A program made the translations under genes and the position numbers. A stretch of DNA of 41,891 nt from Longimicrobium sp. (GTDB taxonomy: Bacteria; Gemmatimonadota; Gemmatimonadetes; Longimicrobiales; Longimicrobiaceae), in contig DASVWD010000164.1 in assembly GCA_036389795.1 (NCBI GenBank), positions 1-41,891 on the forward strand, given 5' to 3'. Shown piece by piece: positions 12,417 to 41,891 of the stretch. The notes beneath the pieces are model-generated. The model was given only the letters and a program-made list of their open reading frames with translations, was not told where the DNA came from and did no database searches. Numbering within the stretch: the stretch's first letter is position 1; each line of letters starts with the position of its first letter.

Positions 12417-14627
<2,211 letters not shown>

Positions 14628-34822: not shown

Positions 34823-35923
34823 TCACACGTTGAAGCGGAAGAGCAGGATGTCGCCGTCCTTGACGACGTACTCCTTCCCCTCGGAACGCATCAGCCCCTG
34901 CTCGCGGGCGGCCTTCACCGAGCCGGTCTTCACGAAGTCGTCCCACCCCACCGTCTCGGCGCGGATGAAGCCGCGCTCGAAGTCGGAGTGGATCACCCCC
35001 GCCGCCTCGGGCGCCCGGGCGCCGACGGGGATCTCCCAGGCGCGCACCTCCTTCTCGCCCGCCGTGAAGTACACGTGCAGCCCCAGCAGCCGGTAGCTCT
35101 CGCGGATCAGCTTGTGGAGCCCCGGCTCGTCCAGCCCGAGCGACTCCAGGAACTCCGCCCGGTGCGCGTCGTCCAGCTCGGCCAGCTCCGACTCGATCTT
35201 GCTGGAGATGGGGATCACGTGCGCCTCCTCGCCGCTCTCCTCCACCGCCCTGCGCAGCGCGCGGACGTGCTCGTTGTCGCCCTCCGGCAGGTCGTCCTCG
35301 GCGACGTTCGCCAGGTAGAGCACGGGCTTGGAGGTGAGGAGGTTGAAGCTCTTGAGCAGCTTTCTCTCCTCGTCGCCGACCTCGACGCTGCGCGCGGGGC
35401 GCCCCTCGCCGAGCGCGGCCACCAGGCGCTCCAGCAGGGCCAGCTCCGCCTGCGCGTCACGATCGCCGCCGCGGGCGGTCTTGCGCACGCGCTCCAGGCG
35501 CTTCTCGGCCACGGCCAGGTCCGAGAGCACCAGCTCCAGGTTGATGACCTCGCGGTCGCGCACCGGGTCCACGCTCCCCATCACGTGCACCACGTCGGGG
35601 TCGTCGAAGCAGCGCACCACGTGCACGACGGCGTCGGTCTCGCGGATGTTGGTGAGGAACTGGTTGCCCAGCCCCTCGCCCTCGCTGGCGCCCTTCACCA
35701 GCCCGGCGATGTCGACGAACTGCACCACGGCCTTCACCACGCGCTGCGGCTGCACCTTCTCGGCGAGCAGGTCCACGCGCGGGTCGGGCACCTCCACCAT
35801 CCCCACGTTCGGCTCCACGGTGCAGAACGGGTAGTTGGCGGCGTCGGCCCCCGCGGCGGTCAGCGCGTTGAACAGCGTCGACTTGCCCACGTTGGGCAGC
35901 CCCACGATCCCCAGCTTCAGCAT
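34823..35923 (-). CDS. ychF: Ribosome-binding ATPase YchF
   Basis: An Obg-family P-loop ATPase, a conserved factor linked to translation and stress. 366 residues: LKLGIVGLPNVGKSTLFNALT (G1), FCTVEPNVG (switch I), FVDIAGLVKGASEGEGLGNQFL (G3 with switch II), then a coiled-coil arm (EKRLERVRKTARGGDRDAQAELALLERL), VLYLANVAEDD (the NxxE motif in place of NKxD, giving ATP preference) and the C-terminal TGS-like domain (FTAGEKEVRAWEIPVGARAPEAAGVIHSDFERGFIRAETV). ATG at 35923. Confidence 0.96.
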   Translation of the reverse strand: MLKLGIVGLPNVGKSTLFNALTAAGADAANYPFCTVEPNVGMVEVPDPRVDLLAEKVQPQRVVKAVVQFVDIAGLVKGASEGEGLGNQFLTNIRETDAVVHVVRCFDDPDVVHVMGSVDPVRDREVINLELVLSDLAVAEKRLERVRKTARGGDRDAQAELALLERLVAALGEGRPARSVEVGDEERKLLKSFNLLTSKPVLYLANVAEDDLPEGDNEHVRALRRAVEESGEEAHVIPISSKIESELAELDDAHRAEFLESLGLDEPGLHKLIRESYRLLGLHVYFTAGEKEVRAWEIPVGARAPEAAGVIHSDFERGFIRAETVGWDDFVKTGSVKAAREQGLMRSEGKEYVVKDGDILLFRFNV

Positions 35924-36797: not shown

Positions 36798-37604
36798 TCA
36801 CCCGGGAGCCGCGCGCGCGTCCACTTCGGATGCGTAGTAGCCGAAGACGAGGAGCGACGCGGCCGCGCCCGCCACGTGCCAGAGCGCGTGTCCCTGCAGC
36901 CAGCTCGAAGGCGAGCACGCGCGGTGGGTGATGTCGAGAACCCAGATGCCGAATCCGACCGCCATCAAGAGAAGCGCGAGGAGGAGATGGCGCCCCTGCA
37001 GCTCGCGAGTCCTCCGCCGCCGGACCAGGGATTCCGGGACCAGCGCGGAGAGCAGAACGGCGGCGAAAAGGTACCTGCGGAGTGCCGGCACCGCGTACAG
37101 GAGGCTCGCCAGCAGCGCGTTCAGCGCTACGTAGCCGAGCACGACCGTAACCGTCTTCAGCCGGCGTATTCTCGCGAGGTTGTAGAGGAAGATGAACGTG
37201 GCCAGCAGGTACATCCCGAACACGTCGAAGAACTGCCCGGCGAACGTCAGCGATGCGTGATAGAAGGCGCTCCCGAAGCCGATCAGCAGGACGGCGGTCC
37301 CGTAGACGGCGCGGTAGGCGGGGTTTCGGGTGATCGGATTCACGCCGTGGCCCGCGCCCCGCGTGGCGCCGCCCGCCAGGATCCAGGCGCCCACGAGCAC
37401 GAAGCCGGCGGACGACAGCGCGTTCGCCGGCTGGCGGATGGAGCCCGGCCGGATCAGCTCGCAGAAGCAGCGGCCCGGCATGCACGTGGCCGGCCGCCAG
37501 TCCGCCCAGGAGAGGCTGGAGGAGTCGAGGAGCAGGTAGAGCGCGAGAAAGGCGAGCGGCGGCGCCCCGAAGAGCAGCGCGTGGACGATCCTGCGCGGAA
37601 GCAT
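36798..37604 (-). CDS. Ceramidase of the alkaline (CREST) family
   Basis: 268 residues with seven hydrophobic segments. Family landmarks in order: CELIRPGSIRQPANALSSAGF, GFGSAFYHASLTFAGQFFD, LYNLARIRR, and SWLQGHALWHVAGAAASLLV. S112-x-x-x-H116, D127 (H+11) and H239-x-x-x-H243 match in identity and spacing the Ser77, His81, Asp92, His217, His221 zinc site of human ACER3. It should be a membrane-embedded zinc amidase acting on ceramide-type lipids, implying sphingolipids (or similar amides) in the cell or its prey. ATG at 37604. GC is somewhat below its neighbours. Confidence 0.87.
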   Translation of the reverse strand: MLPRRIVHALLFGAPPLAFLALYLLLDSSSLSWADWRPATCMPGRCFCELIRPGSIRQPANALSSAGFVLVGAWILAGGATRGAGHGVNPITRNPAYRAVYGTAVLLIGFGSAFYHASLTFAGQFFDVFGMYLLATFIFLYNLARIRRLKTVTVVLGYVALNALLASLLYAVPALRRYLFAAVLLSALVPESLVRRRRTRELQGRHLLLALLLMAVGFGIWVLDITHRACSPSSWLQGHALWHVAGAAASLLVFGYYASEVDARAAPG

Positions 37605-37718: not shown

Positions 37719-38450
37719 TCAGTGGTGGCGGTGCCCGTCGGCCTCCACGAAGCGGAGGAACTGGGCGCGGGTGCCGCGGAAGCGGTTGACGTCCACGCGC
37801 CTGCCGATGCCGTCCACCCGCCCGCGCGTGGTGTACTGCCAGAACGTCCACCGCCCCCACTCGCCGGGCACCCGCGGCGCGCTGCTGCGGTAGTGCGCGA
37901 TCCAGAGCGCGTGCCGGCGGAAGCCCCCGCCCTCCAGCCGCCGCGCGAACCGGGGGTTGGTGTAGACGATCGGCCGCTTCCCCGTCTCCTCCTCCACGAT
38001 GCGCAGCCAGGTGCGCACGCCCCGCCGGAGCCGCGCCGAGCCGATGCCGCCGTGCACCTCCACGTCCAGCACGGGCGGCAGGTCGCTCGGCCCCAGCCGC
38101 ACGGTGCGGAGGAAGTGGCGCGCCTGCCGCGCCGGGTCGGTGCCGGGGCGGTAGAAGTGGTACGCGCCGCGCACCACGCCGGCCCGCTTCGCGCCCCGCC
38201 AGTTGCGCGCGAAGGTGGGGTCGGTGAGGTCGCCGCCCTCGGTGGCCTTGATGAAGGCGAACGCCACGCCGTCGTCCTTCACCGCGTGCCAGTCGATGCT
38301 GCCCTGGTAGCGGGAGACGTCCACGCCGCGCAGCGAGCGCGGCGCCTCGGCGGCGGAGAAGAGCGGGCGCGCGGCGAGCAGGAGGCCCGCGCTGGCCGCG
38401 GCCGCGGCCCAGCGCGCGCGCCGGGAGCGGAGCAGGTGTGCGATCTTCAT
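37719..38450 (-). CDS. GH25 family lysozyme (muramidase), exported
   Basis: 243 residues. N-terminal signal or anchor (RWAAAAASAGLLLAARPLF), then the GH25 catalytic barrel: RGVDVSRYQGSIDWHAVK (D44), FAFIKATEGGDLTDPTFARNW, GAYHFYRPGTDP, LPPVLDVEVHGG (D129 and E131, the catalytic pair), PIVYTNPRFA, and WTFWQYTTRGRVDGIGRRVDVNRF. It cleaves the MurNAc-GlcNAc bond of peptidoglycan; in the periplasm or outside it may remodel the wall or attack other bacteria. ATG at 38450. Confidence 0.94.
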   Translation of the reverse strand: MKIAHLLRSRRARWAAAAASAGLLLAARPLFSAAEAPRSLRGVDVSRYQGSIDWHAVKDDGVAFAFIKATEGGDLTDPTFARNWRGAKRAGVVRGAYHFYRPGTDPARQARHFLRTVRLGPSDLPPVLDVEVHGGIGSARLRRGVRTWLRIVEEETGKRPIVYTNPRFARRLEGGGFRRHALWIAHYRSSAPRVPGEWGRWTFWQYTTRGRVDGIGRRVDVNRFRGTRAQFLRFVEADGHRHH

Positions 38451-39111: not shown

Positions 39112-39589
39112 ATGAACAGACTCCGGGTGGACGGCTGGGTGGAGATCGGCCCGCTTGCGCGGGGTTGCCGGCAGGGGGCTCACTCAACACGAATGCCAGT
39201 CGGAGGGATTCCGGGTACGGAAATGTAAGCGATTACACGATAACGAGATGCGATTCGAATCCGATCCCCGGCTCCGGACGCGCTCCCTTCCCCCTGTCCA
39301 CGATTCAGGTCAGCTCGCGCCCAGCCGATGACGGGCGGAGATCCGGATTTCCAGAACGAGATGTCATCCCGAGGGGAGCGTCGGCGCAAGCTCCGTCCGG
39401 CACCGCGGCCCGGACGCTCGCGAGGGATCTACCCGATGCGGCCGAGGAGCCGGCAGTCGCGCGCGAAGGCCGGCCACCAGCACGGTCGAGTAGATCCCCC
39501 AGGCGCCGCCGAACCGCGGTGCGGAGGAAGGGGTCGGTGCAGCGGCGCCTTCGGGATGACATCCGATGGATGTCACTCCCGACGACCAT
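39112..39589. other. Intergenic gap with a large inverted pair of repeats
   Basis: About 480 bases, no gene. After an AT-richer island (about 39220-39250) come two copies of the CCCTCGGGATGACAT...TAGATCCCTCG element in opposite orientation: 39361-39436 and 39488-39572, the same family as 4815-4860. Confidence 0.6.
39361..39572. repeat. Inverted pair of GATGACATCC elements
   Basis: Starts ATGTCATCCCGAGGGGAGCG ... CGAGGGATCTACCCGATGC and ends GTAGATCCCCCAGGCG ... CTTCGGGATGACATCC. The outer ends are reverse complements, so the unit can fold into a long cruciform. Confidence 0.65.
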
Positions 39590-41359
39590 TCACCCGAGCA
39601 GCGCCGACACGGCGTGGCGGAGCGCGTCGAGCATCAGTCCGCCGTCGGGCTCGCCGGGGGGGCCCTTGAACTGGGTGTTGACGGCGAAGCGCAGGAAGAA
39701 GGGGACGAGCACCAGCGAGACGGCGCCCATCAGCTTGAGCGCCACGTTGACGGCCAGGCCGGCGCAGGCCAGGCGCTCGCCCGCCCCGTCCCAGGCGTGC
39801 ACCAGGAAGAGCGAGAGCGGCACCCCGGCGACGACCGCGCCGGCCAGGAGCCCGCAGAGCCCGTCGAGGCCCACCAGCGCCCCCGTCAGCACGGGGACGG
39901 CGACCGCGATCAGCCCCGGCACGATCAGCCCGCGCAACGCCGCGCGCCCGGGGTCGGCGCCCGTGCGGAGCGCCGCCATCAGCACCAGCGCGGCGAAGAC
40001 GAACGGCGCGGCCCCGCCCACCAGGAGCCCGGCCAGCACGCGGCCGGAGAACACGTCCACCCACTCCAGCAGCCCCTTCGGCGCGGAGCCGACGCCCGCC
40101 GCCAGCGCCAGCGCCGCCAGCCCCGCCGCCGCGCTCGCGAACGCCCGCCCCGCCGCGCCGGCGTCTCTCGTTCGCACCGCGTCCGCGTCCGCAGCCGACG
40201 CATCCGCCGGCGCTGTCACCGGCGCCACCGCCGGCACGTCCAGCGCCGCCGCCGCGGTGACGCCGAGCGTGGCGACGATGCCCACGGCGGCCAGGGCGAC
40301 CCCGTAGAGCCCCGCCAGCGCGTAGCCCACCCCGGCCGCCACCGCCAGCGCCGTCACCGGGAAAGCCGTGGCCGCCAGGCCCACCGCCGCGCCGGCCGCC
40401 GGATCGGGCTCGGCCACGGCCGCGTCCGCCGCCCGGCCCCGGGCGCCCAGGCCACGCGGGAGCCAGCCGATCGCCACGCCCGCCAGCGCGCCGGCCAGGA
40501 GCGCCCAGTACGGCCCGTCGTAGCGGTAGACGGTGCCCACCTCGTCGGTCATGTCGAAGCCGAGCCGCGTCGCCACGAACCAGGCGGCGACGAGGAAGAC
40601 GGCCGTCGCGGCGAGCACTGCCGCGCGCAGCCCCGCCCCAGCGCCGCGCCGCCTGAGCGCGCGCGCCAGCGGGAGGCAGAGGGCGGAGGCAACGAGCCCC
40701 AGCGCCAGCGCCAGCACCGGGAAGCTCACCGCGGCGATGCGGTTGTCGTAGCCCTGCAGCGACGCGTCCGTGGCGCCGACGGCCCAGGCGGCGGCGACCG
40801 CGCACGCCAGGCTACCGAGGAGGTCCGCCGCGCTCCCCGCGGCGCGCCACCCCGGCGAACCGCCCGCGCAGATCCCTCCGCCCACGCGCAGGAAGAGCGC
40901 GGCCAGCGCGGCGCCGAGCGCGAACCCCGACGAGATGTCGACGAACTCCTCGAAGCGAACCTGCTGGGTGACGCCCGCGTACGTGATCCCGAAGTAGTAG
41001 ACGATCCCCAGCCCCAGCAGCCCGAGCGAGGCCGCCGCGAGCCCCACCGCCGCCCCGCGGCCGGGCCCACTTCCCGCCCTGGCGCCCACCCACAGCGCGA
41101 AGAGCCCCGCCGCCGCCGCCGAAGCCGCGCCGATCCCGAACGCCGCCGCGGTCTTCATGCGGATCACCAGCGACAGCAGCACGATCCCGAGCACGACCAC
41201 CGCCGCGAAGGCGATCCCCGTGCGGCGGAGAAACGGGCCGGGGGCGGCGCGCGCCGCCTCCCCCGCCGCGCGCGCGCCGCGCAGCGCCAGCACCGCGGCC
41301 AGGGCCAGCCCGGCGAGCCCGAGCAGCCACACCCAACCCGCGAGGTCGATGATCGTCAA
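39590..41359 (-). CDS. Membrane pyrophosphatase paralogue lacking the hydrolytic centre
   Basis: 589 residues with about 15 hydrophobic helices. It aligns along its length with the intact hppA of this window: SGFALGAALAALFLRVGGGI vs TGFSLGAESIALFARVGGGI; SAADLLGSLACAVAAAWAVG vs MGADLFGSYVATILASMVLG; LAGLYGVALAAVGIVATLGV vs VAGLYGVAIAAAGMMATTAM; GRVLAGLLVGGAAPFVFAAL vs ARVLGGLFVGAMIPFIFSSL; NVALKLMGAVSLVLVP vs NILIKLMSIVSLVIAP. All PPi/Mg ligands are gone: the K-x-x-D...DNVGDNVGD loop is replaced by CAGGSPGWRAAG, and the DNAGG and DNAKK segments are lost. Ion-gate residues R158, D179 and K542 are kept. No stops or frameshifts over 1.77 kb. TTG start with GAGG upstream. Probably a membrane channel- or carrier-like pseudoenzyme; function unknown. 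Confidence 0.85.
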   Translation of the reverse strand: MTIIDLAGWVWLLGLAGLALAAVLALRGARAAGEAARAAPGPFLRRTGIAFAAVVVLGIVLLSLVIRMKTAAAFGIGAASAAAAGLFALWVGARAGSGPGRGAAVGLAAASLGLLGLGIVYYFGITYAGVTQQVRFEEFVDISSGFALGAALAALFLRVGGGICAGGSPGWRAAGSAADLLGSLACAVAAAWAVGATDASLQGYDNRIAAVSFPVLALALGLVASALCLPLARALRRRGAGAGLRAAVLAATAVFLVAAWFVATRLGFDMTDEVGTVYRYDGPYWALLAGALAGVAIGWLPRGLGARGRAADAAVAEPDPAAGAAVGLAATAFPVTALAVAAGVGYALAGLYGVALAAVGIVATLGVTAAAALDVPAVAPVTAPADASAADADAVRTRDAGAAGRAFASAAAGLAALALAAGVGSAPKGLLEWVDVFSGRVLAGLLVGGAAPFVFAALVLMAALRTGADPGRAALRGLIVPGLIAVAVPVLTGALVGLDGLCGLLAGAVVAGVPLSLFLVHAWDGAGERLACAGLAVNVALKLMGAVSLVLVPFFLRFAVNTQFKGPPGEPDGGLMLDALRHAVSALLG

Positions 41360-41792
41360 GGACCAACCTCAGGCGATGGTGGTTCGACTCCCCTCCGGAG
41401 CGCCGCGTGCCCCTGAAAACAACGTGCCGGACGGTTCGCCGGGCATCCGCGCGGAGGCCGGCAGCCCCCTTCCTGGCGCCTGGCGCGCCTGTCCCTCCCC
41501 CGAGAACCCCCGGGCCATCGTGGACGAAGCGGCGGCCGGAATCGGTGCCGCTACCGCGCCCCACCCACCTGCCAGGGGGAGAAGATCCCTCGGCCCTGCC
41601 GTCATCCACGCGGACGCTGGTTCCGTGTGGCCGGGGCCCAGACCGTGTGAAAACCTCGGCAACTGGGAGTTGCGACGGTTTTCAAGAAGAGCGAGACGCG
41701 AAATTCGGGGTGAGCGGCCTGAGCAGCGTCTCAGATGCGTCTGGAGAGCTGAGAACCCGCTCCTCTGGAGCCTTGAAGACGACGCAAACGGC
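41360..41792. other. Intergenic region, repeats and IS flank
   Basis: About 430 bases without a gene. 41469-41502 is an inverted copy of the 23287-23322 element, 41578-41606 a partial GATCCCTCGG/GTCATCC element, and 41648-41684 a hairpin near the transposase end. Confidence 0.5.
41648..41684. repeat. Hairpin near the transposase fragment
   Basis: TGAAAACC ... GGTTTTCA outer arms with an inner GCAACT/AGTTGC stem. It lies about 110 bases beyond the transposase stop and could be the insertion sequence's end or a terminator. Confidence 0.45.
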
Positions 41793-41891
41793 TCAGATCG
41801 GCTGCGGAACGGGCATTTTACCGCTCCTCAGCACCTCCAGGAGACACTCCACCCCAAGCAGGTTCAACACCCGCCTCAGGTTGTACGCCAG
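41793..41891 (-). CDS. C-terminal end of an IS transposase (partial, cut by window edge)
   Basis: Minus-strand frame entering from the window edge: LAYNLRRVLNLLGVECLLEV, then LRSGKMPVPQPI and stop. The L-A-Y-N-L-R-R-V-x-N-x-x-G segment is the usual C-terminal helix of DDE transposases of the IS1182/IS5-like type. Only 32 residues are visible, so the IS family is not certain and intactness cannot be judged. Confidence 0.7.
   Translation of the reverse strand: MAYNLRRVLNLLGVECLLEVLRSGKMPVPQPI

Follow-up and report, generated by a model that had tools for sequence, protein, structure and literature searches.

Membrane-bound pyrophosphatases (M-PPases) have been divided into ion subclasses on the basis of a few gate residues, and in the published table (PMC10897367) the H+-PPase of Flavobacterium johnsoniae is marked by E at position 5.43 and G at 6.53. 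The same source describes the role of E6.53 as the ion-binding glutamate. In the substrate-bound plant enzyme, in which the gate is closed, the residues that neutralise K16.50 are D6.50, S6.54 and N16.46 (PMC5150537). No account of an M-PPase pseudoenzyme was found in the open-access literature searched, which is no proof of absence.

The window analysed here (the whole stretch of 41,891 nucleotides) carries an intact hppA on the plus strand (12417-14627) whose residues at 5.43 (E) and 6.53 (G) are those of the F. johnsoniae-type H+-PPase; this and the other H+ or Na+ assignments below were read from the sequence. A second gene on the minus strand (39590-41359) encodes a catalytically dead descendant of an M-PPase of the other, Na+-type subclass. 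That its product is a core-only descendant of such a pump, devoid of the hydrolytic site, is well supported.

Reading frame, catalytic face and fold of the dead protein

The gene at 39590-41359 begins with TTG and encodes 589 amino acids, in agreement with the coordinates and length given by the sequence-only reading. A likely ribosome-binding site, GAGG (41367-41370, minus strand), was read directly 7 nt 5' of the start, and an in-frame stop stands immediately before it. Promoter and terminator scans for this gene returned nothing. The product matched the Pfam family H_PPase (PF03030) with an E-value of 1e-29 and 104 bits, the curated cut-off being 29.7, and BLASTP against the intact hppA product of the window gave 4e-24 at 27% identity, confirming a homology to M-PPases far beyond chance.

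The catalytic motifs KxxDxxxDxxGKxE, DNVGDNVGD, DNAGG, DNAKK and GDxxGDPxKD, which define the ligands of the enzyme (EC 7.1.3.1), are absent with a single exception: D524 (39788-39790), opposite the Asp of AWDNAKK in the alignment, is the sole catalytic ligand still in place. The earlier claim that every PPi/Mg ligand had been lost is therefore nearly but not wholly right; the residue numbers quoted with it for the intact hppA were correct. Loop 5-6 is reduced to a stub of 8 residues (residues 165-172, 40844-40867), as against 39 in intact enzymes, and KxxDxxxDxxGKxE together with the first Asp of DNVGDNVGD falls in the resulting gap. The whole catalytic lid (loops 5-6, 11-12, 13-14 and 15-16) has been removed or shortened.

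Hydropathy analysis revealed 16 TM segments. With the sidedness of the loops taken from the known M-PPase topology, 47 of 48 periplasmic loop residues are kept and 96 of 216 cytoplasmic ones; 120 of the 131 deleted residues belong to cytoplasmic loops and a further 8 to helix 4, at its cytoplasmic end. No indel shifts the frame. An AlphaFold2 (AF2) model (pLDDT 78.7, pTM 0.85) superposed on the Na+-PPase of Thermotoga maritima (4AV3/6QXA) with a Z score of 39.9 over 549 residues, its 16 helices standing in the M-PPase arrangement; the predicted fold is partly borrowed, because the alignment supplied to the program contained intact enzymes.

One explanation for such a gene is a frank pseudogene whose frame has stayed open since GC-rich DNA has few stops. 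The window has 72% GC, and because the strand opposite the gene is open as well (616 codons), an open frame alone proves little here. Several observations make this explanation highly improbable. GC at codon positions 1, 2 and 3 is 0.80, 0.59 and 0.96, a contrast which runs along the full length, and GC3 (0.963) is near the values of the neighbouring genes; the start site and Shine-Dalgarno sequence have also been kept. When an intact family gene was drifted neutrally to 40% identity at GC contents of 0.72-0.90, it acquired 2.4-6.2 stops and retained 3-5 TM segments (maximum 8), compared with no stops and 16 segments observed. The simulation ignores indels and any selection that preceded the loss of activity. 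It argues against plain decay, but a positive function and the avoidance of harmful misfolding would look alike in it. A frame open by chance is rejected on the simulation and the placement of the deletions. The proposal that the membrane core was held by selection rather than left to plain decay thus stands, on the missing stops, the 16 helices, the nearly exclusively cytoplasmic deletions, the gene-like codons and a second dead copy in another genus, described below. The composition of the protein has drifted towards Ala (25.8%) and Gly (14.3%), a sign of relaxed constraint on side chains.

Origin of the gene and its fate across the family

A genome search identified just two M-PPases in the genome of the window (G000), the intact hppA and the dead gene. 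The second M-PPase of the relatives (class A) has a Na+-type gate, with S at 5.43 and E at 6.53, and is the nearest relative of the dead protein (36-40% as against 30% to the intact hppA in alignment A1, with better E-values as well). The dead protein and the class A proteins of two genomes, G001A and G007A, have a GY[DE]NRIAAVS stretch in common. In a tree without the other dead protein (G013) it joined G001A and G007A (AU 0.94); placement with class B was rejected (0.003) and the other class A placements were not, bar one inside the G001/G007 pair, the AU test having used a smaller number of resamplings than is advised for the program. With G013 included the two dead proteins paired on very long branches amid weak support (67), which is probably long-branch attraction. 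Tree, AU test and locus all place the protein in the Na+-type clade (class A of the order); its exact sister group is less certain because of the long branch, the divergence being about 2 substitutions per site.

The family locus of the Na+-type gene reads prs-rplY-pth-hppA-(GH25)-ychF, where prs, rplY and pth were named from their sequences. With respect to GH25 and ychF, the dead gene has both the side and the orientation of the relatives' Na+-type hppA. Comparison of the loci identified ychF (34823-35923, minus strand) as the downstream anchor of the ancestral prs-rplY-pth-hppA-ychF arrangement, and a GH25 lysozyme-like gene (37719-38450, minus strand), which stands between hppA and ychF in G003-G006 as well. 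A duplicate of the intact hppA, or a paralogue spun off from it as the sequence-only reading supposed, is rejected on the tree and the locus; the dead gene is the in-place remains of a second, separate pump of the Na+ type.

Two further features of this region were noted. A gene for a ceramidase-family membrane protein (36798-37604; PF05875, 1e-16) adjoins the lysozyme gene. Between the dead gene and a lipoprotein gene lies a dispersed inverted-repeat element, MITE- or REP-like, with the ends GATGTCATCC/GGATGACATC (39360-39563), and 45 further sites in the genome partly match the stretch 39240-39589.

The window is a whole contig (C164). At its upstream end stands a truncated transposase gene of which the 3' part remains; sequence comparison identified it as the 3' end of an insertion sequence (IS; 41640-41891, minus strand). 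Contig C219 breaks off shortly behind pth, within the 5' portion of a similar transposase, and its terminal repeats match those at the end of C164. The two ends are probably one element separating the dead gene from its former operon; several contigs of this genome stop in the same transposase end, and other copies exist. The IS probably causes the contig break.

The Na+-type pump was searched for in 21 family genomes, some of them incomplete (G003 86%, G007 76%, G020 61%), and was found intact in 5 (G010, G011, G016, G017, G018), altered at a few catalytic residues in 6, fully dead in 2 (the genome of the window and G013, of another genus) and absent in 8. The altered copies (G001 and G003-G007) all belong to the genus of the window. 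In the numbering of the Vigna enzyme, G003-G006 have the N of DNAGG changed to T, the N of GNTT to S and K694 to R; G007 (L053:8827-11034) has N534K, K12.50T, K694R and DLVGD for DNVGD; and G001 (L051:2487-4631) has the changes of G007 plus K250T and D287G (= D6.43). None of the examined genomes of the genus holds an unaltered Na+-type copy, while identity of the H+-type enzyme remains near 80%. Where the gene is absent, pth and ychF are still near each other in G002, G008, G009, G012, G014, G015 and G020, without pump remnants between them; G019 is rearranged and gave no Na+-type match.

By a simple counting method, uncorrected for codon bias, dN/dS was 0.35 for G001/G007, 0.17-0.27 among G004-G006 and 0.12-0.15 for intact pairs. 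The altered copies of the genus, G001 and G007 included, are accordingly read as remaining under purifying selection. The ratio for the dead gene itself is unmeasurable because its nearest relatives are too diverged.

Searches of genome_contigs (from which this genome and its very close neighbours may be missing), of viral_contigs and of 394 class members turned up no orthologue of the dead form. At the level of the phylum, a Pfam survey covering 395 genomes was followed through its best 150 matches; among 47 genomes, many of them picked for weak or multiple matches, G013 has the sole other long, open, low-scoring M-PPase copy. The remaining copies in these genomes were mostly read as contig edges or frames with a stop. 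Two M-PPase copies with one in-frame stop (G072:C1:110429-112124 and G182:C1:51534-53543) are candidate pseudogenes or sequencing errors.

The G013 gene (G013:C75:58672-60639 = L054:8673-10640) encodes 655 amino acids, and an M-PPase fold was likewise predicted for it (AF2 pLDDT 85.1, pTM 0.89). Like the protein of the window it has lost its catalytic ligands, kept D6.50, S6.54 and K16.50, and replaced E6.53 by Gly. Unlike it, 189 of 216 cytoplasmic loop residues remain, N16.46 is Thr, the gate Arg is His, so that this Arg is not conserved in the other dead copy, and the gene still lies between pth and ychF in its native operon, 28 nt after the former and 4 nt before the latter. Its codon composition is like that of its neighbours.

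These comparisons bear on the possibility that the gene of the window is simply late in being lost, without positive function, its foldability kept since a misfolded 16-helix protein is harmful and its cytoplasmic face having gone first. The 8 family genomes without the gene include the closest relatives by YchF (G002, G008), every copy found in the genus is altered, and the Ala/Gly drift and the probable IS upstream fit as well. Against this, a divergence of about 2 substitutions per site is long if the gene persists solely because misfolding would be harmful, the G013 copy, also dead, is undisturbed in its operon with neighbour-like codons, and in the window five gate residues outlasted the other polar residues of the core (see below). 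Late loss is thus a possible but tentative explanation.

The ion gate and what the core may still do

The sequence-only reading held that the protein had kept its ion gate, and alignment upholds part of this. R158 (40886-40888), D179 (40823-40825) and K542 (39734-39736) do correspond to R5.50, D6.50 and K16.50, and two residues which had been overlooked are kept too, S183 (S6.54; 40811-40813) and N538 (N16.46; 39746-39748). Lost are the ion-binding Glu at 6.53, now G182 (40814-40816), and the gate Ser at 5.43, now A151 (40907-40909). With C186 at 6.57 there is no gate Glu at 6.53, 6.57 or 5.43. The five residues kept (5/5) contrast with 3/18 of the other invariant polar TM residues (p=0.0017), or 5/7 with 6/27 when Na+-type enzymes only serve as the reference (p=0.024); the same comparison was not significant for the G013 protein. 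The remaining polar residues of the TM core are mostly replaced, often by Ala. Since the D6.50/S6.54/N16.46 trio that neutralises K16.50 in the closed plant gate is kept here, the pore is probably sealed without E6.53, K542 being held by D179, S183 and N538; the gate geometry was judged by alignment only.

This bears on the suggestion that the protein is a passive, perhaps regulated ion channel in which, with the lid gone, a wide cytoplasmic funnel opens onto the gate and H+ or Na+ flows down its gradient. The retained core and five gate residues, and the trimmed lid loops, would suit it. The gate has, however, been deprived of its ion-binding carboxylate, in G013 too, and of the Ser which orients it, the leftover R/D/K triad would be net positive and repel cations, and most other polar residues of the core are replaced. 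A leak channel is accordingly highly improbable. The earlier proposal of a partner subunit, here pictured as a heterodimer in which the dead protein assists or regulates the intact H+-PPase, found no support: M-PPases do form homodimers whose protomers communicate (PMC5150537, PMC10897367), but the two proteins are only about 30% identical and of different subclasses, which coexist elsewhere, and much of the dimer interface is made by helices 10 and 13, whose conservation (40% and 48% relative to the class A consensus) is no higher than that of the remainder. It is the least credible of the explanations.

The new use of the fold that had been envisaged would be a maintained pseudoenzyme, its catalytic face stripped by selection and its 16-helix core and partial gate kept for a new job such as regulated conductance, sensing or scaffolding. 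This can be entertained only tentatively, the late stage of loss being a serious alternative because the same gene has been eroded stepwise and lost in close relatives.

The explanation preferred here, with a probability of about 0.5, is that the gene is an in-place descendant of a Na+-type M-PPase, eroded stepwise, whose core still folds and which neither hydrolyses PPi nor pumps. In this lineage the Na+-type pump would have eroded while an H+-type M-PPase elsewhere kept the role of PPi-driven pump. The product would be translated and constrained as a membrane core, inserting and folding as that of an M-PPase, with PPi hydrolysis and pumping presumably gone. Its leftover role, if any, would be passive (structural, regulatory or ligand-sensing) rather than transport.

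Comparison with known systems

At a single locus, this family shows one and the same pump in conditions ranging from intact through slightly altered, crippled and stripped to deleted. The series lets one ask which residues serve pumping but not folding, whether the gate survives loss of its glutamate, whether a channel or a sensor can arise from a primary ion pump, and what use there may be for a pump that no longer works. Structural studies of the M-PPase gate could also take the core-only protein as a naturally minimal scaffold.

Among known systems, the K+-dependent Na+-PPase of T. maritima (TmPPase) resembles the dead protein in fold, in its 16 TM helices and periplasmic loops, and in R5.50, D6.50, S6.54, N16.46 and K16.50. 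The dead protein differs in lacking the catalytic Asp, Lys and Glu sets, E6.53 and S5.43, and in its cytoplasmic loops (96 as against 216 residues). Sister genera carry their Na+-type hppA at the same genomic locus (e.g. L063:7283-9421, 712 aa). The F. johnsoniae-type H+-PPase, represented by the intact copy of the window, is of the same family and also has G at 6.53; unlike the dead protein it has all the catalytic motifs and E at 5.43, and a recent common origin of the two is rejected by the tree. As in other pseudoenzymes, for example dead paralogues such as prozyme (PMC5201418), catalysis has been lost and the fold kept; the difference is that the ancestor here was an ion pump rather than a soluble enzyme, and that no activated partner is known.
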